NCBI RefSeq assembly: GCF_019443425.1
Contig: NZ_CP080382.1
Coordinates: 2,790,001 to 2,854,000 of the forward strand
Direction: 5' to 3'
Source of the DNA: Arthrobacter sp. PAMC25284
GTDB lineage: Bacteria; Actinomycetota; Actinomycetes; Actinomycetales; Micrococcaceae
DNA: 64,000 nucleotides
Numbering within the stretch: the stretch's first letter is position 1; each line of letters opens with the position of its first letter. This document shows positions 32,570-48,713 of this stretch, in pieces. The notes under the pieces were generated by a model. The model was not told where the DNA came from. It did not search any database and saw only the letters and a program-made list of their open reading frames with translations. The position numbers and the translations under genes are program-made.

Positions 32570-32716
32570 CCTTTCCAGAATAGAGGACATCCGGGCGGCC
32601 CCGGGTGCCGGCGGACGGAGCCGGCACCCGGGAGGAGTGGGCCGGCCGCTGGCGCCCCGGCCCGTGACACAGCCGCTTGACACGGGCCACCGCCGGTGGC
32701 CTGCCACAATGGGCTC

Positions 32717-33889
32717 GTGAGTGCACCGCAGAGCATCCCGGACCCCGCTGCCCGGGAGTCCGTCGTCCGGAATCCCGCCGCCAGCAGCCGGAGCGGCAGC
32801 CCCGGCGTCGACGCTGTCCGCGGCACGCTGGTGGACGCAGAGATCGAAGATATCCCCGCCGCGGGTCCCACCCGGGTGGGGAGCCGCCGGGCGCTTGTTT
32901 ACCTTGGCGTCTGCCTCGTCCTGATCGGGCTCAACCTGCGCACGGTTTTTTCAAGTTTCGCCGCAGTGTTGCCTGAAGTGACGGCCGACGCCGGGCTGCC
33001 GGGCTGGGCGCTCGTGGTCCTGACCACGGTGCCGGTGACGCTGCTCGGACTGTTTGCCCCGCTCGCGCCGTTCCTTGCCCGGCGGTTCGGTGCCGAACGG
33101 GTGTTGCTCGGGGCCATGGCCATGCTGACGGCCGGGCTGCTGTTGCGTCCCGTGGAGGTCCCCGGCGCGGGGCATCTTCCTGCGCTGCTCGCTGGCACCG
33201 CGGCCTGCGGAGCCGCGATCTCGCTCTGCAACGTACTGCTGCCGGGACTGGTGAAGCGCGACTTCCCCCACCGGCTGGGTCTTATGGGCGGTCTGTACAC
33301 AACGGCGATCGTCGCATCCGCGGCCCTGGGTGCAGGCCTGACCTACCCGCTGTTCAGGGTAAGCGGGGAGTGGGCGGCGGCGCTGTGGTTTTGGGCGCTT
33401 CCGGCGGGCGTCGTTTTCTTGCTGTTCCTGCCAGTGGCTGTCCGGCAGCGGCATGGCCGGCAGGGACACGCACACGGAGGCGTGACGGTGTGGCGTTCCG
33501 CTGTGGCATGGAACGTGACTGCTTTTATGGCCTTCCAGGCGATGATGTCGTTCAGCGTTTTTGCCTGGCTGTCGCCGATCCTGCGCGAACGCGGCATGGA
33601 CGGCAACGCGGCCGGGCTGGTCGTCTCGACGTCGATCCTGGTGCAGATGCTCGGCTCCTTGTTCGCGCCGGCCCTGGCCACCCGGTTCGGCGATCAGCGC
33701 ATCATCAACACGGTCGTGGCGCTCCTGACCGGAGGGGGTTTCGCCCTGAGCGTTTTCGGACCGCTGGAGCTGATCTGGCTCTGGACCGGGGTGCTGGGCC
33801 TTGGCCAGGGCAGCCTGACCGCGGTGGCGTTGACCATGATCATGGTCCGTACCCGGGACGCATCCTGCACCGCGGCTACCGGCTGGTGA
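32717..33889 (+). CDS. MFS transporter, CynX/NimT type, C-terminally truncated
   Basis: The protein has 390 residues. About ten membrane helices can be counted, with the family opening GVCLVLIGLNLRTVFSSFAAVLP. Members export or import small molecules such as cyanate, nitroimidazoles or amino-acid analogues. After the helix that ends TMIMVRTRDA the sequence runs into the start of another MFS gene and stops 8 codons later, so helices 11 and 12 are missing. The GTG at 32717 gives the usual short start MSAPQS, and an earlier GTG at 32696 is also open. CACAAT ends 6 bases before the GTG and could be the -10 box of a leaderless promoter. The protein may be nonfunctional. Confidence 0.75.
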   Translation: MSAPQSIPDPAARESVVRNPAASSRSGSPGVDAVRGTLVDAEIEDIPAAGPTRVGSRRALVYLGVCLVLIGLNLRTVFSSFAAVLPEVTADAGLPGWALVVLTTVPVTLLGLFAPLAPFLARRFGAERVLLGAMAMLTAGLLLRPVEVPGAGHLPALLAGTAACGAAISLCNVLLPGLVKRDFPHRLGLMGGLYTTAIVASAALGAGLTYPLFRVSGEWAAALWFWALPAGVVFLLFLPVAVRQRHGRQGHAHGGVTVWRSAVAWNVTAFMAFQAMMSFSVFAWLSPILRERGMDGNAAGLVVSTSILVQMLGSLFAPALATRFGDQRIINTVVALLTGGGFALSVFGPLELIWLWTGVLGLGQGSLTAVALTMIMVRTRDASCTAATGW

Positions 33890-35352
33890 CCCTGGGTTCG
33901 TGCGCCCTGGTCTTCATGGCCGCGTTTGAGTCGCTTGCGGTGACGACGATCATGCCGCTGGTCAGCCGCGAGCTGGACGGGGCCGGCCTCTACGCCCTAG
34001 CCTTTGCCGGACCGTTTGCCACCGGTGTTATGGGGATGGTCGCCGCGGGCAACTGGTCCGACCGCCGGGGTCCTGCCGCACCGCTCATGACGTCCGTGGC
34101 GGTGTTCGCGCTGGGCCTGCTGATCGCGGGAACAGCTGGGAACATGTCCGTTCTGGTTGCCGGCCGCCTGGTGCAGGGACTCGGCGGCGGGGCTCTGACG
34201 GTCGCGTTATACGTCGTGGTGGCCCGGGTCTATCCGGCGCTGCTCCACCCGAAGATCTTCGCCGCCTTTGCGGCCGCCTGGGTCATTCCGTCTCTGGTCG
34301 GTCCGCTGGCTGCCGGCATCGTTGCGCAGTGGATCGGCTGGCAGTGGGTCTTTCTGGGCGTGGTGGGTCTCGTGGTCCCGGCGCTGCTGATGGTTGTCCC
34401 GGCACTGCGTGGCCTTAACGGTGGGCCCGGGAGCACCCCGCCGGAGCAAGCTGCGGAACCGGGCGCTGAGTCAGCCGCGGAGCCTGGTGCGGATCCGGAA
34501 CGGCGACCCGAAGCGGAGCCTGGTGCGGATCCGGACGCAGGCGAGGGGCACGGCCGTACAGGCAGAGCCGTCACTGCGGCGGACCCTCGACCATTGACTG
34601 CCTGGCGCCCGGCCTGGGACTACCGCCGGTTGGGGTGGGCGACGCTCGCGGCGCTCGCCGTGCTCGGCCTGAATCTGTCCGCGGAGATTCCGGCGGTCGG
34701 CACTGCACTGTCGGTAGCCGCCGTCGTTGTCGCGCTCGTGGCCGTCCGCCCACTGGTGCCGGCCGGAACCCTGCGTGCCCGCCCCGGGTTGCCGAGTGTG
34801 ATCCTCATCCGCGGCCTTGCGGCGGCGGCCTTTTTTGGGGCTGAGGTGTATGTGCCGTATCTGCTCGTTGAACGCTATGCGTTCTCGGCCACTCTGGCGG
34901 GGCTTGCGTTGACCGGCGGGTCCCTCGCCTGGGCTGCCGCCTCCGCGATTCAAGGCAGGCTTGGTCCGCGGCTGGGGCACCGGCGGGCCATCCGAATCGG
35001 CGCGGCGCTCGTTTTAGGTGCCATTATCGTTGTCCTGACGGCCACCATCTTCGTGTGGCCGGCAGTCGTCGCGATCGCCGGCTGGGTCTTCGCCGGCGGT
35101 GGGATGGGTCTGCTGTATCCACGGCTGAGCGTCCTGACCCTGGCGTTGTCGACGCGGGCCACCGAAGGGTTCAACAGTTCAGCGATGTCGATCGCCGACT
35201 CTCTCGGCGCGGCGCTGGTGTTGGCGGTTTCCGGTGTCGTCTTTGCCGCGCTGGCGGCCAACGGGGCCGCGTTTTCCGGGGTCTTCGCCCTCGCCGCGGT
35301 TATCGCCGCTGCGGCGGTAGTGGTGGCTCCCAGGATTACCCCGGCGAAGTAG
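33886..35352 (+). CDS. MFS transporter, DHA2-like, possibly 5' truncated
   Basis: From the GTG at 33886 the protein has 488 residues, with 12 to 14 membrane helices. The first helix begins at once (GSCALVFMAAFESLAVTTIMP), followed by the MFS motif in GNWSDRRG. A long polar linker (about residues 180-235) is unusual and rich in Glu, Ala, Pro and Gly. The in-frame codons just upstream (ILHRGYRL) look like the natural N-terminus of such a protein, so its original start has probably been lost in a deletion that joined it to the preceding MFS gene. The GTG overlaps the TGA of that gene (GTGA). An ATG at 33916 would cut the first helix. Confidence 0.7.
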   Translation: MTLGSCALVFMAAFESLAVTTIMPLVSRELDGAGLYALAFAGPFATGVMGMVAAGNWSDRRGPAAPLMTSVAVFALGLLIAGTAGNMSVLVAGRLVQGLGGGALTVALYVVVARVYPALLHPKIFAAFAAAWVIPSLVGPLAAGIVAQWIGWQWVFLGVVGLVVPALLMVVPALRGLNGGPGSTPPEQAAEPGAESAAEPGADPERRPEAEPGADPDAGEGHGRTGRAVTAADPRPLTAWRPAWDYRRLGWATLAALAVLGLNLSAEIPAVGTALSVAAVVVALVAVRPLVPAGTLRARPGLPSVILIRGLAAAAFFGAEVYVPYLLVERYAFSATLAGLALTGGSLAWAAASAIQGRLGPRLGHRRAIRIGAALVLGAIIVVLTATIFVWPAVVAIAGWVFAGGGMGLLYPRLSVLTLALSTRATEGFNSSAMSIADSLGAALVLAVSGVVFAALAANGAAFSGVFALAAVIAAAAVVVAPRITPAK

Positions 35353-35747: not shown

Positions 35748-36983
35748 TCAAGCGGCGCGGAGTTCGACGTTTTGGGTAGTGGTGTGCCAGGCGGTGTCCT
35801 CGTTGTAGGTGGTGTGGTGGCGGAGGCAGCCGTGGAGGATCCCGACGAGCCGGTTGGCCAGGGCCCGGAGGGTCTGGTGGTGGGTGGCGCCGCGTGAGCG
35901 GCGGGCGTCATAGTAGGCGCGTGCGCCGGGCGAGACGCTGAGTGCGGTGAAGGCCTGCAGGTCCAGGGCATCGGCCAGGCGCCGGTTTCGGGCATGCCGG
36001 GCCAGCACGCTGCGCTTGGTGCCGGAGGCCCGGGTGACCGGGCTGGTCCCTGCGTAGTTCCTCCGTGATCTGGCGTCGGCGTAGCGGTCCGCCGCGTCCC
36101 CGAATTCGCCCAGCACCCGGGCGCCGAGCACCGGCCCCAGACCCGGCTGGCTGAGGTAGATCTCAGCGTCCGGGTGCCGGCCAAAAGATTCCTCCACCTG
36201 CCCCTGCAGGACGCCGATCTGGGCGTTCAGTTCGCGGATGACGGCAACCAGGGCCGCCGTGGTGGCCGTGTAGGCGGCCTCGATCCCCGGGCGGGCGGGC
36301 AACTGGGGCGCGTGCAGTGCCTCGACGATCTCGCCGGCTCGGGCGGCCAGGTAGCGTTGCCGTCCGGCGTGCCGCAACAGCGCCTGGACCCTGGCCGGGG
36401 TGAGGCGGGCCCCGGCCTTGGGGCCAGGCGCGGCGCCGAGCACGGCCATCGCGTCCCGTCCGTGCAGGTCCTGCCCGAACGCGGACAGCGCGGCCGGGTA
36501 GTACTCGCGCAGGTTCGAACGCAGCACGTTCGCCTGCCGCTGCCTGGCCCAGATCAGCGACTGGTGAGCCCTCGCCAGGACCTTGACCTCCTCCGCGACG
36601 TCGCTGTCGGCGGCGATCGCCCGGTGCAACTCCCGGTCAACAGCCACGATCCGGGCCAGCACCAGCGCATCACCCTTATCCGATTTCGCCCCGGCCGCCC
36701 CGGTGCGCTGCCGGTAGCGGGCCGACTGCGCCGGATTGATCGCGTAAACCGTGTAGCCGGACGCCAGCAGTCCCTGGACCCAGGGCCCGCGGTCGGTCTC
36801 AATCCCGATCAGCACTTCGGCCGGTGCCGCGTTCTCGGGCAGGTACCCTCCGAGCAGGTCATGGAGGGCCTCGAGCCCGGATACGCCCTCAGTGAGCCTG
36901 CGGCGCGTCAGTACCCGGCCCCCCTCATCCATGACCGCGATGTCGTGGTGGTCCTCCGCCCAGTCGTCGCCGATGAACAGCAT
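35748..36983 (-). CDS. IS110-family transposase
   Basis: The protein has 411 residues from the ATG at 36983, where the typical opening FIGDDWAEDHHDIAVMD supplies the first catalytic aspartate of the DEDD domain. GIETDRGP gives the glutamate, and KSDKGDALVLARI gives two more aspartates. The C-terminal Transposase_20 domain follows (SQPGLGPVLGARVLGEFGD), with the conserved YAGTSPVTRASGTKR containing the serine used by IS110 enzymes. These recombinases work with an element-encoded bridge RNA. An open frame continues 30 codons upstream but without conservation. The gene appears intact. Confidence 0.93.
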   Translation of the reverse strand: MLFIGDDWAEDHHDIAVMDEGGRVLTRRRLTEGVSGLEALHDLLGGYLPENAAPAEVLIGIETDRGPWVQGLLASGYTVYAINPAQSARYRQRTGAAGAKSDKGDALVLARIVAVDRELHRAIAADSDVAEEVKVLARAHQSLIWARQRQANVLRSNLREYYPAALSAFGQDLHGRDAMAVLGAAPGPKAGARLTPARVQALLRHAGRQRYLAARAGEIVEALHAPQLPARPGIEAAYTATTAALVAVIRELNAQIGVLQGQVEESFGRHPDAEIYLSQPGLGPVLGARVLGEFGDAADRYADARSRRNYAGTSPVTRASGTKRSVLARHARNRRLADALDLQAFTALSVSPGARAYYDARRSRGATHHQTLRALANRLVGILHGCLRHHTTYNEDTAWHTTTQNVELRAA

Positions 36984-37287
36984 TGTCCCGATCCCTTCCG
37001 TTGTGGGCTTATCCCGGGCACGACGGGGAGGAAGGAACTGGCTGCGGTCTAATGGATCAGTGCTCCACGGCACGACACCCCACCAGCGCTACAGGCCCAC
37101 CTCACCAACCGGCAGGGGCACGATCTAGACCTAGGCCTCGACACGGGGCCAGGGGCGTCAAGTGCTCACCCACCAGCGGCTCGGATACCCAGCATGCCCC
37201 CGAAAGGACCTACGGGTACACCCCCATTAGGGGGCGTAGGCTTTTAGCGCAACACCACGGCAACGATCAGGAACTGGGGGTCCACCA
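36984..37287 (-). mobile_element. IS110 non-coding end, candidate bridge-RNA region
   Basis: This 304-base region has no gene and lies upstream of the transposase start (read on the minus strand). In IS110-group elements the 5' non-coding end carries the promoter and encodes a structured bridge RNA that pairs with target and donor DNA. An inverted repeat CCTACG...CGTAGG with an inner CCCCC-ATTA-GGGGG hairpin lies at 37209-37240. It could be part of this end or an operator for the GH53 gene. The exact element boundary cannot be seen because IS110 elements lack clear terminal inverted repeats. Confidence 0.4.
37209..37240. promoter_or_regulatory. CCCCC-ATTA-GGGGG hairpin or operator upstream of GH53 gene
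   Basis: CCCCC (37221-37225) and GGGGG (37230-37234) flank ATTA, enclosed by CCTACG and CGTAGG arms. It lies 48 bases before the GH53 ATG. It may be a regulator site for the glycan locus or part of the IS110 end. The sequence alone cannot decide. Confidence 0.4.
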
Positions 37288-38475
37288 TTGCATGGACTAC
37301 GTCAAAAAATCGCTGCCGGTATTGGGCGACGGCAAGCACTGACCGTGATTCGCGCAGCAGTGCTCGCCGGAGCTACGGGGGCAGCATGGGTATCGAAGGA
37401 CCAGCCCGGCACAACCAGCCGGTCAGCGGCGCCCGTCAGCGGATTTCGTTTCCGGGGCGCTGACATCTCCTTCACTTTGCAGGAGGAGGCCATCGGCACG
37501 GCCGTCCGGGACGCCGCCGGCGTACGCCCGATCGAACGGCTGCTCGCCCGACGCGGTGCCAACACCGTCCGACTGCGCGTGTGGGTCGACCCGCTTCCCG
37601 GAACCAGCGGGCTCGCCGAGACGCTCGTAATGGCGCGAAGGGCGCACGATGCCGGCCTCGGCATCATCCTGAGCCTGCACTACTCGGACACCTGGGCCGA
37701 TGGGAAATCGCAACCGATCCCGAAAGCATGGCGGGGGCTTGATGACGCCGCCCTGCTCAGGACCGTAGAAAATTACACCCGCAAGGTCGTAGGTGCCCTG
37801 GTCAAGCAGGGCACCCCGGCCCACGTTGTCCAGATCGGCAACGAGATCAGCAGGGGGATGCTCTGGCCCGCCGGGCAGGTGTATCGGTCCGATGGCGAGC
37901 ACTGGTCGTTGTTCGCGAAGCTGCTGAAGGCCGGCGTCAAAGGTGCCAAGACCGCCAGTCCTGACCATCCGCCCTTGATCATGATCCATACTGAAACTGG
38001 TGGCGACAAGGATGCCAGCAAGTACTTCTTCGACCGCCTTGTTGCTCGGCGGGTCCCATTCGACATCATCGGACTCACGTACTACCCGTTCTGGAACGGT
38101 CCGCTGACCAACCTCGAAACCACGCTCCATCAGCTTGTCGCCCGCTATGGCCGGGACGTGATGGTGGCGGAGACCGCCTATCCGTGGACCCTCGCCCAAG
38201 CCGGCGAACAACAGAACGTAGTCCGACGCGCCGAGGATCTGCCGGAGGCTGGTCTGTATCCGCCCACTCCTGCAGGCCAGGCCGCGTACTTCGAGAGATT
38301 GCGCCGGGTGCTCCAGCAAGTGCCGGGCGGTCGGTGCGCCGGATTTTTGGTGTGGGAACCCGGGTGGACCCCCGGTGTTCGCGCAACCCCGGAGATGGGC
38401 AACGCGCACGCCAACCTTGGCCTCTTTGACTGGACCGGTCAGGGGCACCCCGCGCTGAAGGTGTTCCGGGCATAG
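37288..38475 (+). CDS. GH53 endo-beta-1,4-galactanase-like protein (copy 1)
   Basis: The protein has 395 residues. An N-terminal region with RRQALTVIRAAVLAGATGAAW looks like a signal sequence or anchor. The catalytic domain opens FRFRGADISFTLQEEA and keeps both GH53 glutamates: the acid/base E186 in QIGNEISRG and the nucleophile E295 in AETAYPW. Family enzymes cut beta-1,4-galactan outside the cell. It faces a second GH53 gene tail-to-tail, 26 bases apart, next to a glycan synthase operon. It may process the polymer made there, but degradation of plant galactan is the alternative. A GGGGGT stretch upstream is the only ribosome-site candidate. Confidence 0.85.
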   Translation: MHGLRQKIAAGIGRRQALTVIRAAVLAGATGAAWVSKDQPGTTSRSAAPVSGFRFRGADISFTLQEEAIGTAVRDAAGVRPIERLLARRGANTVRLRVWVDPLPGTSGLAETLVMARRAHDAGLGIILSLHYSDTWADGKSQPIPKAWRGLDDAALLRTVENYTRKVVGALVKQGTPAHVVQIGNEISRGMLWPAGQVYRSDGEHWSLFAKLLKAGVKGAKTASPDHPPLIMIHTETGGDKDASKYFFDRLVARRVPFDIIGLTYYPFWNGPLTNLETTLHQLVARYGRDVMVAETAYPWTLAQAGEQQNVVRRAEDLPEAGLYPPTPAGQAAYFERLRRVLQQVPGGRCAGFLVWEPGWTPGVRATPEMGNAHANLGLFDWTGQGHPALKVFRA

Positions 38476-38501
38476 CCAAAACGGTGGCGGACCAGGGCGG
38501 T

Positions 38502-39696
38502 TCAGTCGGTAGCCCTGCCCGTAGGCCTGAAGGCCTCCAGCGCGGGTAGCCCTTGTCCGCGCCAGTCGAACAGCGTCAGGTTGCTGTGGGTATTTCCGGC
38601 ATGTTCGCTGGCGCGGACGCCGGGCAGCCAGCCTGGCTCCCAAATGAAGTACCCGGCACCGCGCTCGTCCGGCACTTCACGGAGCACTTGATTGAGCGCG
38701 GCGAAGAATTTCGCTTGGCCCTCAGGTGTGGGTGGGTACGTCGCCGCCTCGGGCAGTGCTGAGGCACTCGAGACAACGCTGGAGGCTTCTTTACCGCTCG
38801 CCAGCGTCCACGGATACGCCGTCTCGGCGATGATGACGTCTTTGTCATACCTGTAGGCGAGGGCACGCACATTGCGCTCCAGATCGGCCAAAGGCCCATT
38901 CCAGAACGGGTAATAGGTCAGGCCGATGACATCGAAATTGACGTCGTGTCGCCGGAGCTGATCGTAAAAGTACACCGAGGCATCGTGGTCGCCCCCCGTG
39001 TCGCTGTGGATCATGATGCGGGGCGGCTGTGTCGGATTTCCGGCGAGGGCACCCCTGGCGCCGGCCTTGAGGAGTTCGCTGAAGCCGGCCCAGTCCTCTC
39101 CGCCCACGGCATGGATCTGACCGTAGGGCCAGAGAATCCCGAGGGTGACCTCGTTTCCGATCTGGACAATAGCCGGCGGTGTCCCCTGCCGGCTAAATGC
39201 GGACACTGTTTCGCGGGTGTAGGTCTCAACCGTCAAGACCAGGGCCTCATGGCTCAGCCCCCGCCAGATTGCGGGAGTACGCTGGGTGCTCCTGTCCGCC
39301 CAGGAATCAGAATAATGAAGATTGAGGAGTAGCTTCTGCCCGGCCGCGGCGGCCCCTGCGTGCCAGCGTGAGCGCAGACTCCAGATCGCTGGTGCCGGGC
39401 AGCGGGTTCACCCACAACCGGACGCGGACAAAATTCGCCCCGTGGTTCGCCAAAATCTTTTCCACCGGCGCCACCTTGCCGGAGTCACTAACGTGTTGGT
39501 TGTTGGCTTCCTCCTGCAATGTGAACGAGATATCGGCGCCGCGAATTCGCAGGATCGGCGAAGCCTCGGGGGGGCTCACTGACACGCTGGCCAGCACCAG
39601 CGCCAGCGTCCCAAGGACGACCACAAACAGGAGAAGCGGCCGGTTCATCCCCAGGGGATCGTGGGATGAACCGTGGTCCTGCTCTCCGCCGTCCAT
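38502..39696 (-). CDS. GH53 endo-beta-1,4-galactanase-like protein (copy 2, frameshifted at 39353-39356)
   Basis: The restored protein is 397 residues. A short polar N-terminus is followed by one hydrophobic segment (PLLLFVVVLGTLALVLASV, near residue 20), so it is secreted or anchored. The catalytic domain matches copy 1: RIRGADISFTLQEEA, QIGNEVTLG with the acid/base Glu, and AETAYPW with the nucleophile. The frame breaks after LTLARR. Removing one base from the CCCC run at 39353-39356 restores AAAAGQKLLLNLHYSDSW. The ATG at 39696 has CCAGGAG 8 bases upstream and follows the synthase stop at 39722 by 25 bases, so it is the last gene of the uxs-ugd-galE-GT2 operon. That position strongly suggests a role in making or trimming the polymer. 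Confidence 0.85.
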
Positions 39697-39721
39697 TATC
39701 GGGCTCCTGGCCATCCATCGG

Positions 39722-41498
39722 TCATGCGCTGGTTATGGCCTGCCAAATTGGACCCGATGCCGCGACTGACGTGGCGAGAAACAGCACCAGGAACACACCG
39801 GCGATTGTCAAGGGTGCCCTCCGTTCCTTCACGGCGTGGCCCCAAGCCAGGCCTGAGTCTCGGAGGGACCGGAAGTCCTGCGTCACGACGACGGCGATCA
39901 ACATCCCGAAGAACAGTGCTCCCTGGAGTGCAAAAAACATCATCCCCTGGTTCGGACTACTTCCGACTCGAAGCAGGAACGACCAGCAAGCGGCAAGCGA
40001 GACAAGCACGAGGAGGAAATAGGGCGCCAGCTGCGCCAGACCGAACTTCGGAACCCCGGTACCGGACATTCCTTTGACCGTGATCATGTACGGTTTTTTT
40101 ACTCTGAGGATTACCTGGATAAATGCGCTGAGAACCGTAACCCACCGCGAGATGTGCAGCACGACACCCCGCCAGGTCAGGCCGGGACCCTTGGGAAGTT
40201 GCCACTGTCGGCTCCAAAGCCACACCCCTGTCGCGGTGAATGCGGCCGGGAGGCTGTGTGCGAAGAAGTCGACGAAACCCGCCCGTGAGATGGGACTGTC
40301 TGCCGCGAGCGAGATCAGCGGAGCGACGAACAACAGGAGCGTCGTCAGCGACCATGCCGCGTACCAGGTCTGGACGAACAGGAACTGCAGGGCTTGCCGG
40401 GGCGAATACTTCCGGATCAGCCGGGGGGTGAAACTAAAGAGGACCTGGATCATTGAATATGCCCACGCAAACTGTTGAGCGCAGTAGGTGCTGAACGTCT
40501 CGGGACCGTCGCCGGTGGCAATGACCTCCGGAAGGAACACGCCTTCGTAGCCCTCGGCGGCAAGGACCACAGTATCGAGGTGGTCCTCGGCGCGCGTCGG
40601 CTGAAATCCGCCGATGCCCCGGATCGCCGCCATGTCGTAGGTGCAGTGGCTGCCGATGATGAACGGAGTCCGGCAGAATCCGAAGAATCCGGTTTGAAGG
40701 GGGCCCTGAAGCACCAGTTCCTGTTCCAGGGACCCTCTCGCTGTCCAGTGCTCGTGGTTGCCGTAGACGCTGGGCGCCTGCACCCAGGCAACCCGCCGGT
40801 TCCGGAAGTACCCCAGAACGCGGTCCAAGTAGTCAGGCACCGGAATATGATCGATGTCCAACTGCGTGAAATGTGTGTACTGGTCGCCGTATCTGTCGAG
40901 CCAGGCGTTCACATTGCCGGCTTTAGTCTTGGTCTGGAAGGGCGGCACAGTCCGGTTCCAGGCCGCGACACCGCTGGGGCCCCCACACTTGATCGTCGTG
41001 ACGGCAGAAGTAGGAGATCCCGAGTTCGCGGGCCATCTGCTCGATGGCGGGCGAGGGTTCCTTGTCGACGAGGATCCAGCTGTCGTGCGGGTAGCGGATG
41101 TTACTCATGGCCTCCAGTTGCCGCCGGACGATGCTGAGAGACTCGGAACCCGGAACGGTCAGGGTAATAACGGCAACCTTGCCAACTGTGCCCGGCGGGA
41201 CATCGTGAATGCTGACCGGAACAGGCTTTCGCATGTAGCCGAGGTAGAAGAGGTAAATGGACGGAAGTACCGTCAACCCGTAGAAGAGGGAAACGGATAC
41301 CAGGGTATAGAGGACGGGACTTCCTATGTGCCGGGGCTGGAGCCACCAGAGCCAGAAGAACCCGCTCACAAAGACCCAGAGGATAACCAAAGCGACGTAT
41401 TGAAACTGCTGTGCGCGGGTGAATACCCGGGTCGTTTCAGTGGATGTCAGGAAATCCTGCGCGGGGCTGCCCCGGCGGCCGATCAGATCGCTGGTCAT
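39722..41498 (-). CDS. Cellulose-synthase-like membrane glycosyltransferase, GT2 (frameshifted at 40980-40984)
   Basis: The restored protein is 591 residues. Two N-terminal membrane helices (about 35-85) precede a GT2 domain with VDKEPS, the DxD motif in TQLDIDH, EDHLDT in place of TED, and QQFAWAYSM in place of the canonical QxxRW. At least five membrane helices follow, consistent with a synthase that polymerises and extrudes a polysaccharide. No PilZ c-di-GMP domain is present. The frame breaks after DDQVWGP. One base too many in CCCCC at 40980-40984 explains it, and the repaired stretch reads SGVAAWNRTVPPFQ. The start overlaps the galE stop by 4 bases. UDP-galactose is a plausible donor from context. 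Confidence 0.85.
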
Positions 41499-42541
41499 CG
41501 CGAGCCTCCTCTCATGTCGACAAGGCCTTTATAGCCAAGCGGATTTTTTTGCTGGAAGCGCCAGGCGTCCTCGCACATCGTCGTCAGGTCCCGGCGGGCG
41601 GACCATCCGAGTTCGGCCCGGGCCCGATCCGGTGAGGCCACAAGTTCGGACACATCACCAGGCCTCCGCCCGACCAACCGGTAGGCGAGATCTTGCCCGC
41701 TCACTGCAGCGAATGCCCGAACAAGCTCCAACACAGACGTGCCGATGCCCGTGCCGAGGTTGTAGCGGCGGAATCCCGGCACCGGGCCGGATTCGAGAGC
41801 GAGCCGGTGTCCTTCGACGACATCCATGACGTGGATGTAGTCGCGGACCGCCGTTCCGTCCGGCGTGGGGTAGTCGGAGCCGAAAATCTTGAGTTCTTCG
41901 AGCCGGCCGGCTGCCAGTTGGGACAGATACGGCAGGACGTTGCCCGGAACCCCCTTGGGATCCTCGCCGAGTTCCCCGCTTTCATGGGCCCCCGCGGGGT
42001 TGAAATAGCGCAGCGCCGTGACCGACCAGTCAGAATGGCGGGCGCACAGATCCGTGAGGATCTGCTCGGCCATCCATTTGCTCCGGGCATACGGGTTGGT
42101 CGGGCGCGCCGGCGAATCCTCTGTGATGGGGAGCGCTGTGGCGTTGCCATAGATGGAGCAGGAAGAGGAGAAGACCAGATGCCGTACGCCTGCGGTGCCC
42201 ATGGCATTTAGCAGGCTGAGTAACCCGGTGAGATTGTTGCTGTAGTACTCGACTGGCCGGTCCATGGAGTCCCCGACCGCTTTGTATGCGGCGAAATGGA
42301 TGACGACGTCGATGCTATGGCGATTGAATACGTCGTCCAGCAGTGTCTGGTCGGAGATGTCGAACCGGTAGAACGTGACGTCGTGGCCACTTATTCGCCG
42401 GACGCTTTCAATGGCGGCGGATGAGCTGTTGACCAGGTTGTCCACCACAACGACGTCATAGCCGTTCAGCAGCAGGTCCAGGCTGCAGTGGCTTCCGATA
42501 AAGCCCGCGCCGCCCGTAACTAGGGCAGTTTGTTGTCTCAT
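41495..42541 (-). CDS. galE: UDP-glucose 4-epimerase
   Basis: The protein has 348 residues and is an extended SDR. The NAD motif is TGGAGFIGSH at residue 9, and the catalytic Ser-x-x-Tyr-x3-Lys is seen as SSSCSIYG and YARSK. Substrate-pocket motifs include RYFNPAGAH and VRDYIHVMDV. It interconverts UDP-glucose and UDP-galactose, feeding the adjacent synthase, which it overlaps by 4 bases. It is the third gene of the uxs-ugd-galE-GT2-GH53 operon. This coupling is strong evidence that galactose is a building block of the polymer. Confidence 0.95.
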   Translation of the reverse strand: MRQQTALVTGGAGFIGSHCSLDLLLNGYDVVVVDNLVNSSSAAIESVRRISGHDVTFYRFDISDQTLLDDVFNRHSIDVVIHFAAYKAVGDSMDRPVEYYSNNLTGLLSLLNAMGTAGVRHLVFSSSCSIYGNATALPITEDSPARPTNPYARSKWMAEQILTDLCARHSDWSVTALRYFNPAGAHESGELGEDPKGVPGNVLPYLSQLAAGRLEELKIFGSDYPTPDGTAVRDYIHVMDVVEGHRLALESGPVPGFRRYNLGTGIGTSVLELVRAFAAVSGQDLAYRLVGRRPGDVSELVASPDRARAELGWSARRDLTTMCEDAWRFQQKNPLGYKGLVDMRGGSR

Positions 42542-42569
42542 AATGTTCGATTCCCCCTGGTTTCAGCGT

Positions 42570-43890
42570 CTAGCGGGCGGGCCGGCCCATGGCGCGGACG
42601 GTCCAGCCGGCGGCGCGCCAACGGTCGATGTCCAGTGTGTTCCGGGCATCGAGGATGTTCGGCGCGGATACAAGATCGGAAACCAGCGCGAGATCAAGTT
42701 GCCGGTATTCCTGCCATTCCGTGAGGTGGACGGTGAGCTGGGCACCCTCGAAAGCCTTGTCTACCTCGGTGGTGTAATTCAGGCCGGGATACGCTGCCCG
42801 GGCATTTTCAATGGCTTCAGGATCGTGGACTCGCACATCGGCACCCAGGTTTTGGAGCGCGTGGGCGACGTTGAGAGCCGGGGAGTCTCGAACGTCGTCG
42901 CTATTTGGCTTGAAGGCTGCTCCGAGCACGGCGATTCTTTTGTTCTCCACGGACCCGCCCAGCATCGTCGTGGCGAGGTTGACGGCGCTCTGCCGGCGAT
43001 TGACGTTGATGGAGTCCACGTTGCGGAGGAACGCGAGTGACTCTTCAACGCCAAGTTCCTCGGCTCGGGCGAGGAACGCCCGAATGTCCTTGGGGAGGCA
43101 CCCGCCGCCAAAACCAAGGCCAGGGGAAAGAAAGCGGTTCCCGATGCGGGCATCGTGGCCGAGCGCCGCAGCCAGCGGGATGATATCCGCCCCAACTGCT
43201 TCACAGATTTCCGAAATGGCGTTGATGAATGAGATCTTGGTGGCGAGGAAGGCGTTGGCTGAGACCTTAACCAGCTCGGCGGTGGCGACGTCCGTCGAGA
43301 CATATGGCGTTCCGGCATCGAGGATGCGTGCGTAGACCTCTCGAAGAGTGGCGTCGGCGGCCGCGGACCCCACGCCGACCACCAGCCGATCCGGATGCAG
43401 GGTGTCATTGACGGCGAAGCCTTCGCGGAGGAACTCGGGGTTCCATGCGACTTCCACCTGGGTTGCATCGGGAGCCAAATCGGCCACCATAGCCGACAAC
43501 CTGGCCGCTGTCCCCACGGGAACCGTCGATTTTCCGACGATCAGGCACGGCCGGTTGAGGTTGGGTGCCAGGCCCCCGCACGACGGCGTCGACGTAAGTC
43601 ATGTCGGCGGCGGTCGAACCCGGACGTTGCGGGGTGCCCACGCAGATGAAGTGAACATCGCCGAATTCCGCCGCTTCCTGCAATGAAGTGGAAAACCTCA
43701 GCCGGCCGGACGCTATGTTGTCGCGAAGAAGGTCCGGGAACCCCGGCTCGAAGAACGGAGCGTGGCCGTTGGCCAACCGTTCAATTTTGGTCGCGTCGAC
43801 ATCGACTCCCAGGACATCATGCCCCAATTCGGCCATACCCGCGGCGTGTACCGCTCCGAGATAGCCCGTTCCAATGACGGTTATACGCAT
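42570..43890 (-). CDS. ugd: UDP-glucose 6-dehydrogenase (frameshifted at 43573-43577)
   Basis: The restored protein is 439 residues, the usual length. The N-terminal NAD domain opens RITVIGTGYLGAVHAAGMAE. The middle has VAWNPEFLREGFAV and the catalytic cysteine in GFGGGCLPKD. The C-terminal domain has LGAAFKPNSDDVRDSPAL. It oxidises UDP-glucose to UDP-glucuronate. The frame breaks after YVDAVV. One base too many in the CCCCC run at 43573-43577 explains it, and repair gives RGLAPNLNRPCLIVGKSTVP. AGGAGG lies 6 bases before the ATG. It provides the substrate for the upstream UDP-xylose synthase. Confidence 0.9.
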
Positions 43891-43954
43891 GCTTGCCTCC
43901 TAAGTGACGGCAGCCCGAAAGTGCCCGGGTCGCCTGGAATAACGGAGTGACCGG

Positions 43955-44986
43955 TCAGGCCAGCCTGGCCATGGCGGGAGTGCCGTGCCGGGACGTGTGC
44001 GGGCGGACGCCCTCAAACTGTGCGCCGGCGATACTGACGGCTGCTGCAGAAACTTCTCCACGGTGCGAACGGAAATAGTTGACCGTGTGGTGGAGGCCTT
44101 CCTCTGTGGAGATTCGAGGACGCCAGCCGAGGAGATTCTCGGCCAGAGTGATGTCTGGGCGCCGTCGGGTCGGGTCGTCCATCGGAAGCGGGTGGAATTC
44201 GATTGTGGAGCGGGAATCGGTCAACGTCAGAACCAGCTCAGCCAATTCATGCATCGTTCGCTCCACCGGGTTGCCCAGATTGATCGGTCCGGTTTCGTTG
44301 CTGTCGATCATGGCAACGATTCCCCGCACCAGGTCATCGACATAGCAGAAACTCCGCGTCTGCACGCCGCTTCCGTAGATGGTCAGAGGATCACCGTTCA
44401 GCGCCTGCGAAATGAAGGTGGAGACCACCCGGCCGTCTTCAGCCCGCATTCGAGGTCCGAAGGTATTGAATATCCGGACGATGCCAACGTTTACTCCCAA
44501 ACTGCGGGCGTAGGCCATGGAAATGGCCTCTGCAAAGCGTTTGGCTTCGTCGTAGACGCTGCGCGGGCCTATTGAGCTGACGTTTCCCCAGTAACTCTCG
44601 ACCTGTGGATGGACCGTCGGGTCGCCGTAGATTTCGCTGGTGGAGGCCAGTACGAAGCGGGCGCCCTTTTCCGCGGCGAGTTTCAAAGCATTCTCAGTGC
44701 CGCGGCTGCCGACGGCGAGCGTCTCTAATGGCATCCGGTGGTAGTCAGGCGGCGACGCAGGGCTGGCCAAATGTGCGACCACGTCGACGGGTCCTCGGAC
44801 GCGCAGCGCGGCGCTGACGTTGGCCCGCATGAACGTGAAGTTTGGGTGCTTTGCGAACGGCGCAATATTGTTGATGCGCCCTGTGGACAGGTCGTCCGCG
44901 CAGATCACTGAATCCCCGCGGTCTAACAAGGTTTCGCAAAGATGGGAGCCCAGGAAGCCGGCTCCACCCGTAATTAATGCACGCAT
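43955..44986 (-). CDS. uxs: UDP-glucuronate decarboxylase (UDP-xylose synthase)
   Basis: The protein has 343 residues. The NAD motif is GGAGFLGSHL, and the catalytic region is STSEIYGDP with Tyr-x3-Lys in YDEAKRFAE. The family-specific RIFNTFGPRM and TRSFCYVDDLVRGI are present. It converts UDP-glucuronate to UDP-xylose, a soluble-type UXS. The ATG at 44986 has GAGGGGA upstream; the longer frame before it is not conserved. It is the first gene of the operon with ugd, galE, the GT2 synthase and GH53. The C-terminal tail of about 30 residues is unusually alanine-rich and outside the family core. Confidence 0.92.
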   Translation of the reverse strand: MRALITGGAGFLGSHLCETLLDRGDSVICADDLSTGRINNIAPFAKHPNFTFMRANVSAALRVRGPVDVVAHLASPASPPDYHRMPLETLAVGSRGTENALKLAAEKGARFVLASTSEIYGDPTVHPQVESYWGNVSSIGPRSVYDEAKRFAEAISMAYARSLGVNVGIVRIFNTFGPRMRAEDGRVVSTFISQALNGDPLTIYGSGVQTRSFCYVDDLVRGIVAMIDSNETGPINLGNPVERTMHELAELVLTLTDSRSTIEFHPLPMDDPTRRRPDITLAENLLGWRPRISTEEGLHHTVNYFRSHRGEVSAAAVSIAGAQFEGVRPHTSRHGTPAMARLA

Positions 44987-46497: not shown

Positions 46498-46834
46498 GTT
46501 CCTGGCCGGCATGGGTCGCGGCGCATCGGCGTCCTGATGATAGGCTGGGTGAACTTGATGTGCAGTGATGCCCACTATGGTCGTAACCGACCGGTACCGG
46601 TTCAGCCGGCGCCCCTGCTGGATTCCTTCGGGAGTCTGTCTGCGGGAAGTGGGTTTTTTCATGTGAGAGGCACATCCTGCGTCGATGAACGCGTTCTATT
46701 TGGTCCCGGCCGCCGCTGCCGAAAGGTTTGTGGCAGCCCGGTTGACCACCTGACTTTTCTTCGGCGAACCCCTGGGCCAACCGGCACCGGGGCCGATATC
46801 CGCATGGATACCGCCTGAAAGACATTTGAAACAT
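46498..46834 (+). promoter_or_regulatory. Long leader of the DEAD-box helicase gene
   Basis: This 337-base region has no gene. A GATAGGCT-like -10 box at about 46540 could start a leader of nearly 290 bases. It holds a GATTCC-TTCG-GGAGTC hairpin with a stable TTCG loop and, 20 bases later, a run of six T. Long structured leaders are common for cold-shock RNA helicases, which would fit, but no known element was recognised. Confidence 0.4.
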
Positions 46835-48713
46835 ATGACTACATTTGCTGCCCTCGGCACGCCCAAGGCACTCGCCGACACACTGACCGCCCAGGGAATC
46901 GAAACTCCGTTCCCCATCCAGGTCAAGACCCTCCCCGACACGCTGGCGGGACGCGACGTCCTTGGCCGCGGCCGCACCGGTTCCGGTAAGACCATTGCCT
47001 TCGCCATCCCGCTCGTCGCCCGTCTTGCCGAGCGCGAAGCCAAGCACTTCCGCAAGCCCGGCCGTCCGATGGGCCTGGTCCTCGCGCCGACCCGCGAACT
47101 GGCCACCCAGATCAACGCGACCATCGAGCCGATGGCCAAGGCCATGGGCCTGAACACCACCGTGATCTACGGCGGCATCTCCCAGGCGCGTCAGGAAAAG
47201 GCCCTGCGCGCCGGCGTCGACATCGTCATCGCCTGCCCGGGCCGCCTGGAGGACCTGATCCGCCAGCGCATCCTGACCCTAGAGGGCGTCGAGATCACAG
47301 TCCTGGACGAGGCCGACCACATGGCCGACCTTGGCTTCCTCCCCGTGGTCAAGAAGCTCATGGACATGACCCCCAGCCAGGGCCAGCGACTGCTGTTCTC
47401 CGCCACCCTGGACAATGGCGTGGACAAGATCGTCCAGCGTTACCTGTCCAACCCGCTGACCCACGCTGTGGATGAATCACAGGCAGCAGTCACCACCATG
47501 GAGCACCACGTACTCGTCGTCAACGACCAGACCGTGAAGAAGCAGCTGATCGTCGAACTTGCCTCGGGCGCCGGCCGCCGGGTGCTTTTCCTGCGCACCA
47601 AGCACCACGCCCGCAAGCTGGCCAAGACCCTGACGGACGCCGGCATCCCCGCCGTCGACCTTCACGGCAACCTCTCGCAGAACGCTCGTGACCGCAACCT
47701 GGCCGAGTTCTCCTCCGGCGAGGTCCGCGTTCTGGTCGCCACCGACGTCGCCGCCCGCGGCGTCCACGTTGACGACGTCGAACTGGTCATCCATGTGGAT
47801 CCGCCCACTGAGCACAAGGCCTACCTGCACCGCTCGGGGCCGCACCGCCCGCGCCGGTTCCGACGGCACCGTGGTCACGCTGACCCTGCCGGAGCAGCAG
47901 TCCGACGTCAAGAAGCTCATGAAGGCTGCCGGCGTCGAGGTCAACTTCGAACGCGTCACCGCCAACTCGCCGCTGGTTGCCGAACTGGTCGGCGAAATGG
48001 CCGACAAGATCGATCCGCGCACCCGCGCCGCGCTGCTGGCCGCCAAGTCCAACCAGGGTGGCGGCAGCTCCACCGGCGCCAACGCCGAGCGTAAGCGCGC
48101 CCGTCGCACCACCCAGGCTGCACCCACCGCGGGTGGCCGTGGCGGCCGTGGCGGACGCGGCCGCGTCGGAGCTGAGGCTCCCCGCACCGATCTTCCCCGC
48201 GCCGAACGCCGCGCCGTGGCCTATGAAGGCCAGGCTGCTGCGCGCAACGCCGCAGAGCGTGTCTCCGAGAGGAACGAGGACCGGATGGATGCCGAGCGCG
48301 CCGAACGCCGCAGCGTCCGCGCCCGCTCAACCGCGTATGGCACCCACCGGAACGATGTTCCGGCTGCGGGTGGCCGCGCTTCGGCTGGCCGCGGTTCCGA
48401 CGGCCGAGCAGCTGAGGGACGCAGCGATGCACGGGGCGCCTCGGCTCCCCGGAGCGGTGGCCAGCGTTCCGGCGCTCCCCGCACGGGCGCGTCGACTGGG
48501 GGCCAGCGCGGCGGGCGTCCGGCCACAGGCCAGCGCGCCGCGGCCGGTGCCAAGTCCGGCGGCAACTCGGCGGTCTGGTCCTCCAACACTGGAGGCACGT
48601 CCGGCGGATCCTACGCAGGCGGCGGCAACGGCCGCTCCGGCGAAGGCCGTCCGGCCCGCAGCGGCCCCCGCCGCGCGTCCGCTCCGGCGTCGAACGAACG
48701 CCGCAGCCGCTAA
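46835..48713 (+). CDS. DEAD-box RNA helicase (frameshifted at 47836-47839)
   Basis: The restored protein is 625 residues. The helicase core has the Q-motif (TPFPIQVKTLPDTLAG), Walker A GRTGSGKT, VLDEADHMADLG, FSATLD and, in the second half, VATDVAARGVHVDD. The last core motif HRSGRTARAG appears only after removing one G from GGGG at 47836-47839. A long C-terminal tail (about 400-625) is basic and rich in Arg, Gly, Ala and Ser, as expected for RNA binding. It unwinds RNA, probably in ribosome assembly or cold adaptation. The ATG at 46835 has a weak GAAAGA upstream, and TTG at 46826 is an alternative. Confidence 0.9.

Follow-up and report, generated by a model that had tools for sequence, protein, structure and literature searches.

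A probable arabinose exopolysaccharide operon with GH53 hydrolases in Arthrobacter sp. PAMC25284, related to the APS system of Sinorhizobium meliloti

The closest described relative of the genes considered here is the operon of Sinorhizobium meliloti for APS (arabinose-containing polysaccharide). The 2019 APS study reportedly found a polymer made mainly of arabinose and a bifunctional epimerase (Uxe); Uxe is said to interconvert UDP-xylose and UDP-arabinose as well as UDP-glucose and UDP-galactose. Published accounts give the APS operon order as uxs1-uxe-apsS-apsH1-apsE-apsH2, and the product of this operon, the closest studied relative of the cassette as a whole, contains arabinose (PMC7902896). 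They also report UDP-xylose 4-epimerase activity for SmUXE (PMC3220709), and activation of APS via CuxR and c-di-GMP, with APS promoting aggregation, biofilm formation and attachment (PMC9495663). We analysed a stretch of 64,000 nucleotides (the window; bases 2790001-2854000 of the 3.88 Mb, one-contig genome of Arthrobacter sp. PAMC25284) that encodes what is very probably a synthase-dependent exopolysaccharide cassette with its cognate hydrolase. The locus looks like a Gram-positive counterpart of this polymer system of root-nodule bacteria. Gene identities come from domain and structure-sequence searches; the genes, in window positions, are:

43955-44986, minus strand: uxs, UDP-glucuronate decarboxylase (UDP-xylose synthase); PDB match to UXS1, E 7e-102
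42570-43890, minus strand: ugd, UDP-glucose 6-dehydrogenase; split by a frameshift into open reading frames 43405-43890 and 42570-43517; C-terminal piece above the TIGR03026 cut-off
41495-42541, minus strand: galE-type UDP-sugar 4-epimerase; TIGR01179 404.6 bits, cut-off 262.3
39722-41498, minus strand: GT2, BcsA-like (as modelled) membrane synthase of the QQFAW subfamily; split by a frameshift into open reading frames 40923-41498 and 39722-40948
38502-39714, minus strand: GH53 hydrolase, encoded at the end of the operon; a frameshift divides it into 39307-39714 and 38502-39236, which score 193 and 44 bits with PF07745
37288-38475, plus strand: second GH53, convergent and intact; PF07745 290.3 bits

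The gene set proposed by an earlier, sequence-only reading of this DNA (uxs, ugd, galE, a BcsA-like GT2 and GH53, with a second GH53 tail to tail and ATGA coupling) was recovered in full at 37288-44986. The five minus-strand genes follow one another with gaps of 64, 28, -4 and 7 bases, the negative value being the four-base ATGA overlap of galE and GT2. The stop codons of the two GH53 genes are 26 bases apart. The block has a G+C content of 62.3%, against 66.7% in the remainder of the window. The best PDB match of the uxs product is human UDP-glucuronate decarboxylase UXS1 (2b69), and the best match not named UXS has an E value of only 3e-37. Two further GalE proteins score above the cut-off elsewhere in the genome.

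The GT2 protein has a GT-A domain and transmembrane helices and, as modelled, has the fold of BcsA-like processive GT2 enzymes. The model shows a single synthase domain, as do the scanned relatives, and the nearest named relatives are from Arthrobacter species. QQFAW occupies the position of QRGRW in Rhodobacter sphaeroides BcsA (alignment made with relative P0003), and a QQ[FY]AW-type motif was recognised by pattern in 118 of 120 listed homologues (the pattern missed two). The sequence-only reading had noted QQFAW in place of QxxRW and the lack of PilZ. Both observations stand: alanine in place of the arginine is an invariant signature of a distinct synthase subfamily, and no PilZ family was found among the matches of the window GT2 pieces, the relatives scanned or S. 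meliloti ApsS. These two features distinguish the locus from cellulose systems with BcsA and an endoglucanase, as do a CelA equivalog score of 76.4 bits for the C-terminal piece (408 aa; the cut-off of 699.1 applies to the full protein), the lack of a BcsB-like gene among the genes of the operon, and different sugar-nucleotide genes. In the GT2 tree, QQFAW and QEFQW synthases form one clade each; the two clades are sisters and stand apart from the QxxRW synthases (Shimodaira-Hasegawa-like approximate likelihood ratio test, SH-aLRT, 98, 100 and 96). The tree was built quickly and contains just five QxxRW rows, one of which has a very long branch; it omits eight loci repeating genomes already present and the short row L025.

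Features shared with APS are UXS, a GalE-family 4-epimerase encoded next to the synthase gene, a BcsA-like GT2 without a PilZ match and a glycoside hydrolase, all in one operon. The published APS order matches two S. meliloti loci. L141 (pSmeSM11b) encodes UDP-glucuronate decarboxylase, GalE, GT2, DUF995, GH26 and DUF995, and L221 (pSymB) has the same order, with its first gene annotated as an SDR family oxidoreductase. The window differs in having ugd within the operon, a Gram-positive host, a second GH53, and a GT2 from the sister QQFAW clade rather than the ApsS-type QEFQW clade. ApsS-type synthases do occur in the orthologous cassettes of the window's sister species, and QEFQW synthases are related to the S. 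meliloti GT2 (536.6 bits, L141 versus the G136 protein). A single GT2 synthase together with the Ugd that supplies it, as in the window, is also the arrangement of hyaluronan synthase/hasB (ugd) operons. Among the matches listed, a literature search gave nothing that links GH53 to a synthase-dependent exopolysaccharide or describes an actinobacterial APS cassette, and PMC7902896 was the only one of them to contain the term uxs1-uxe. On a Loktanella salsilacus plasmid (L223, 7811-10334), an ApsS-type operon is followed by two annotated glycosyl hydrolases with a small gene between them.

Six genomes have the same operon order as the window (G236, G136, G807, G841, G882 and G853, the last with no ugd nearby), with a QEFQW or QEYQW GT2 that is 26-29% identical to the window GT2. 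Identities to the window for the other cassette genes (a comparison that left out G136) are 69-80% for uxs, 81-84% for ugd where present, 66-80% for galE and 58-69% for GH53 over its longer piece. In G841, for example, uxs, ugd, galE and GH53 are 80%, 82%, 77% and 69% identical, but the GT2 is 26% identical and ApsS-like (QEFQW). As cassettes of sister species carry an ApsS-type synthase instead, the synthase has been exchanged within a constant cassette. In a tree of uxs-ugd-galE, the window and G889, a genome of the same genus, are nested among the family's QEFQW operons (98/97). Five changes of synthase type are needed on this tree, three of them forced by supported branches, and synthase type is not more clustered on it than when shuffled (261 of 500 shuffles were as low).

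The cassette is conserved. In the class sample (394 genomes), the GT2 subfamily (best match >580 bits) is present in 11 genomes, all 11 of which have GH53 on the same contig, no more than 3 kb away; these carriers are not independent, because ten belong to one family (f25) and the eleventh is the genome of the window itself. Of the 206 genomes in the genus sample (E <= 1e-30), eight have a GT2 match, and uxs, galE, GT2 and GH53 occur together in seven of these, six of them with ugd also. In the eighth (G106), the GT2 is of the QQQRW type and GH53 is absent from the genome. Among 395 genomes of the window's family, GH53 is present in 18, three of which have the operon. GH53 itself is found in 59 of the class-sample genomes, so its presence in all 11 carriers exceeds what chance would give; at least 14 of the 59 have a synthase of the QQFAW or the sister subfamily beside it. 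This count is a lower bound, since weak second GH53 places in G541, G537, G517 and G411 and weak matches in G570 and G396 were left out of it; QEFQW carriers below the 1e-60 limit are counted only where the GH53 search found them (G545). The neighbourhood is kept, in several gene orders, across Micrococcaceae, Frankiaceae and Pseudonocardia.

The second GH53 matches galactanases in the PDB (E 1e-55 to 7e-33) and has an RR-containing N-terminus that, by eye, is a putative export signal. Its glutamates E186 (in NEI) and E295 (in AET), which we take to be the catalytic pair, are conserved in synthase-linked and unlinked GH53s. In the GH53 tree (which omits eight loci repeating genomes already present and retains the identical pair L034/L204), a single branch separates all 29 synthase-linked rows, together with one other, from the rest, and the synthase types are mixed among them. 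The window's operon GH53 clusters with its counterparts in the G889 operon and in the QEFQW-type operons. GH53 enzymes for galactan use belong to the same family and have the same conserved glutamates; the window GH53 differs in grouping with the synthase-linked enzymes and in its surroundings. A search of the window, which did not extend to transporter genes, gave no homologue of GH42, whereas in two utilisation-type loci (L090 and L096) GH53 adjoins a GH42 beta-galactosidase. One GH53 that groups with the synthase-linked ones (L101, 7240-8184, in G056) has no synthase in the DNA examined and is close to a contig end.

The hydrolase beside the synthase also varies. A genome scan seeded by two subfamily peptide patterns (IGGFQPTR and AEDHLDTV), which thus samples only the QQFAW subfamily, gave 32 QQ[FY]AW loci (QQYAW in four). 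Twelve have GH53, all of them actinobacterial, 16 have an ApsE-type GH26 domain (ten fused to the synthase and six directly after it), four have neither in the DNA examined (L012, L017, L025 and L028), and none has both. The GH26-type loci are from Chloroflexota, Patescibacteria and kin, Solirubrobacterales, one other member of the Actinomycetota and one unclassified bacterium. The GH26 match of L030 is weak (E 9.5e-8), and the Pfam GH26 model recognises five of six fused proteins scanned, missing L027. GH53 and ApsE-type GH26 replace each other beside the QQ[FY]AW synthase across phyla. In two f26 genomes (L152, 4264-6036; L153, 4270-6021), a right-handed beta-helix protein (PF13229) adjoins a uxs-GT2-galE-ugd set in the place of GH53; both genomes are among the three typed QEFQW in the class sample that lack GH53 beside the synthase.

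We consider it probable that the locus is a synthase-dependent operon of the APS type, by which a Gram-positive actinobacterium makes an arabinose exopolysaccharide. Ugd, Uxs and the GalE-type 4-epimerase together make up a single linear pathway that leads to UDP-L-arabinose. Ugd would convert UDP-glucose to UDP-glucuronate, Uxs would decarboxylate this to UDP-xylose, and the epimerase would form UDP-L-arabinopyranose. The epimerase may be Uxe-like in its role, and perhaps acts on UDP-glucose and UDP-galactose too. The GT2, as an inverting membrane-embedded synthase, would polymerise arabinose and extrude the chain through its own channel, with outer-membrane parts unnecessary. Inversion of UDP-beta-L-arabinopyranose would give alpha-L-arabinopyranose links, and the predicted product is a 4-linked alpha-L-arabinopyranan, equivalent to beta-1,4-D-galactan minus C6. 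Exported GH53 would trim this polymer. Its likeness to a galactan lacking C6 would explain why the trimming enzyme is from the endo-beta-1,4-galactanase family. Gene identities, the conserved cassette, the exchange of synthases, the clustering of synthase-linked GH53s, the alternation of GH26 with GH53 and the BcsA-like model are direct results; we infer the donor sugar, the linkage, the substrate of the epimerase and the action of GH53 on the product. Arabinose is the likely main sugar of the polymer, and for 1,4 linkage the chances are close to even. Every one of the 17 class-sample genomes in which either synthase was typed has a UXS, a co-occurrence that is weak because UXS is common in the class and carriers are confounded by lineage. 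Rather more tentatively, QQFAW and QEFQW could be sister subfamilies of L-arabinopyranan synthases across Actinomycetota, Chloroflexota, Patescibacteria and Alphaproteobacteria, making 4-linked alpha-L-arabinopyranan, paired independently with GH26 (also fused) or GH53, and repeatedly exchanged in a constant sugar-nucleotide cassette.

If this is true, a little-studied polymer, APS, extends beyond rhizobia to Gram-positive actinobacteria that live in soil or in symbiosis, including Frankia, and a synthase subfamily is defined in which the arginine of QxxRW is replaced throughout. An annotation as "galactanase" beside such synthases would then mark biosynthesis of an arabinose polymer, not attack on plant cell walls, and would raise the sharp question of whether GH53 cuts arabinopyranan.

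Several observations weigh against an arabinose product and an APS-type system. The operon epimerase is 49% identical to the genome's own GalE and 43% to S. meliloti Uxe. UXS is present in 177 of the 394 class-sample genomes and is widespread in family f25, the source of most carriers. In Frankia and Parafrankia, the loci contain GT2 and GH53 but no uxs, ugd or galE next to them, and among GH26-type loci ugd is beside the synthase in L015 and L022 only, with no other sugar-nucleotide gene. A search that recovered its positive controls gave no match to the GH26 protein ApsE in the window, where GH53 is in its place. ApsH1 and ApsH2 (DUF995) have no match in the window or in 17 related loci; DUF995 is also absent from the ApsS-like loci of Sulfitobacter (L222) and Loktanella (L223). 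The branch uniting the synthase-linked GH53s has an SH-aLRT of only 90, and one of the rows it unites has no synthase in the DNA examined. Positions peculiar to the synthase-linked GH53s are mostly common to GH42-linked GH53s, and thus no residue change points to a pentose. Finally, GH53 is beside the synthase in four of the seven class-sample genomes typed QEFQW, and not in G601, G708 and G635.

A different kind of doubt concerns the state of the locus in this strain. The cassette may be useful in relatives and decayed here, which we consider rather unlikely; such decay is compatible with any of the explanations of the product. Three of the six genes (ugd, GT2 and the operon GH53) are split by frameshifts in this assembly, and an IS110 element is nearby. 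The G889 locus (L142; uxs 84% identical) has the same gene order, GT2 subfamily and convergent second GH53, with the genes open over the matched lengths and ugd as one open frame. Constraint measured against G889 is strong (nonsynonymous divergence, dN, 0.09-0.27; synonymous divergence, dS, 1.5-4.6 by piece and saturated; all pieces but the N-terminal GH53), which argues against decay. Other genes of the assembly are also split, including an S8 peptidase (1523089-1523935) and a DEAD-box helicase. Given this constraint and the split genes elsewhere, indel errors and recent loss are both possible. The helicase, recognised by eye, extends over two overlapping plus-strand frames of the window (46826-48094 and 47688-48713), like the three operon genes, and suggests assembly indel errors or recent decay.

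As to the product, the sequence-only reading had favoured a beta-1,4-galactan, with GalE mainly a source of UDP-galactose for the GT2, GH53 trimming the chain, and Ugd and Uxs providing glucuronate or xylose side groups. Its pairing of the synthase with a cognate GH53 is upheld, but it was probably wrong about the sugar. The solved-structure relatives of GH53 are named endo-beta-1,4-galactanases, family-wide residues are retained in the synthase-linked GH53s, and the epimerase resembles GalE more closely than Uxe, all of which favour galactan. The decoration is unsupported, because no glycosyltransferase besides the GT2 is present in the operon to use UDP-glucuronate or UDP-xylose and because the three enzymes are consecutive steps to UDP-L-arabinose. 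Galactan has no use for Uxs and Ugd, and we thus lower it to an improbable rival. Also against it, uxs is present in all seven operons of the genus sample, and the alternating ApsS-type synthase has a relative in an operon for an arabinose polysaccharide.

Less probable still is a heteropolymer of arabinose with galactose, xylose or glucuronate, made with a bifunctional epimerase and with the intermediates UDP-xylose and UDP-glucuronate. The bifunctionality reported for S. meliloti Uxe would allow this, but the single synthase domain and the lack of a further transferase in the operon argue against it. A locus for degradation of plant galactan, with biosynthetic genes adjacent by chance, is very improbable and is rejected on neighbourhood and tree: although most class-sample GH53 genes with surroundings examined have no synthase alongside, no GH42 homologue was seen in the window, the neighbourhood is kept across Micrococcaceae, Frankiaceae and Pseudonocardia in several gene orders, and synthase-linked GH53s group together.

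Next to the block, an IS110-family transposase (35748-37073, minus strand; NF033542 170.8 bits, cut-off 140) is located about 215 bases from the second GH53 and borders the low-GC region. We discarded a tRNA-Arg called by ARAGORN at 33723-33811 as a candidate edge of an island: it sits within the open reading frame of an MFS protein and is probably spurious. Two MFS-like frames, recognised by eye (32696-33889 and 33370-35352, plus strand), overlap in different frames, as if genes were joined.

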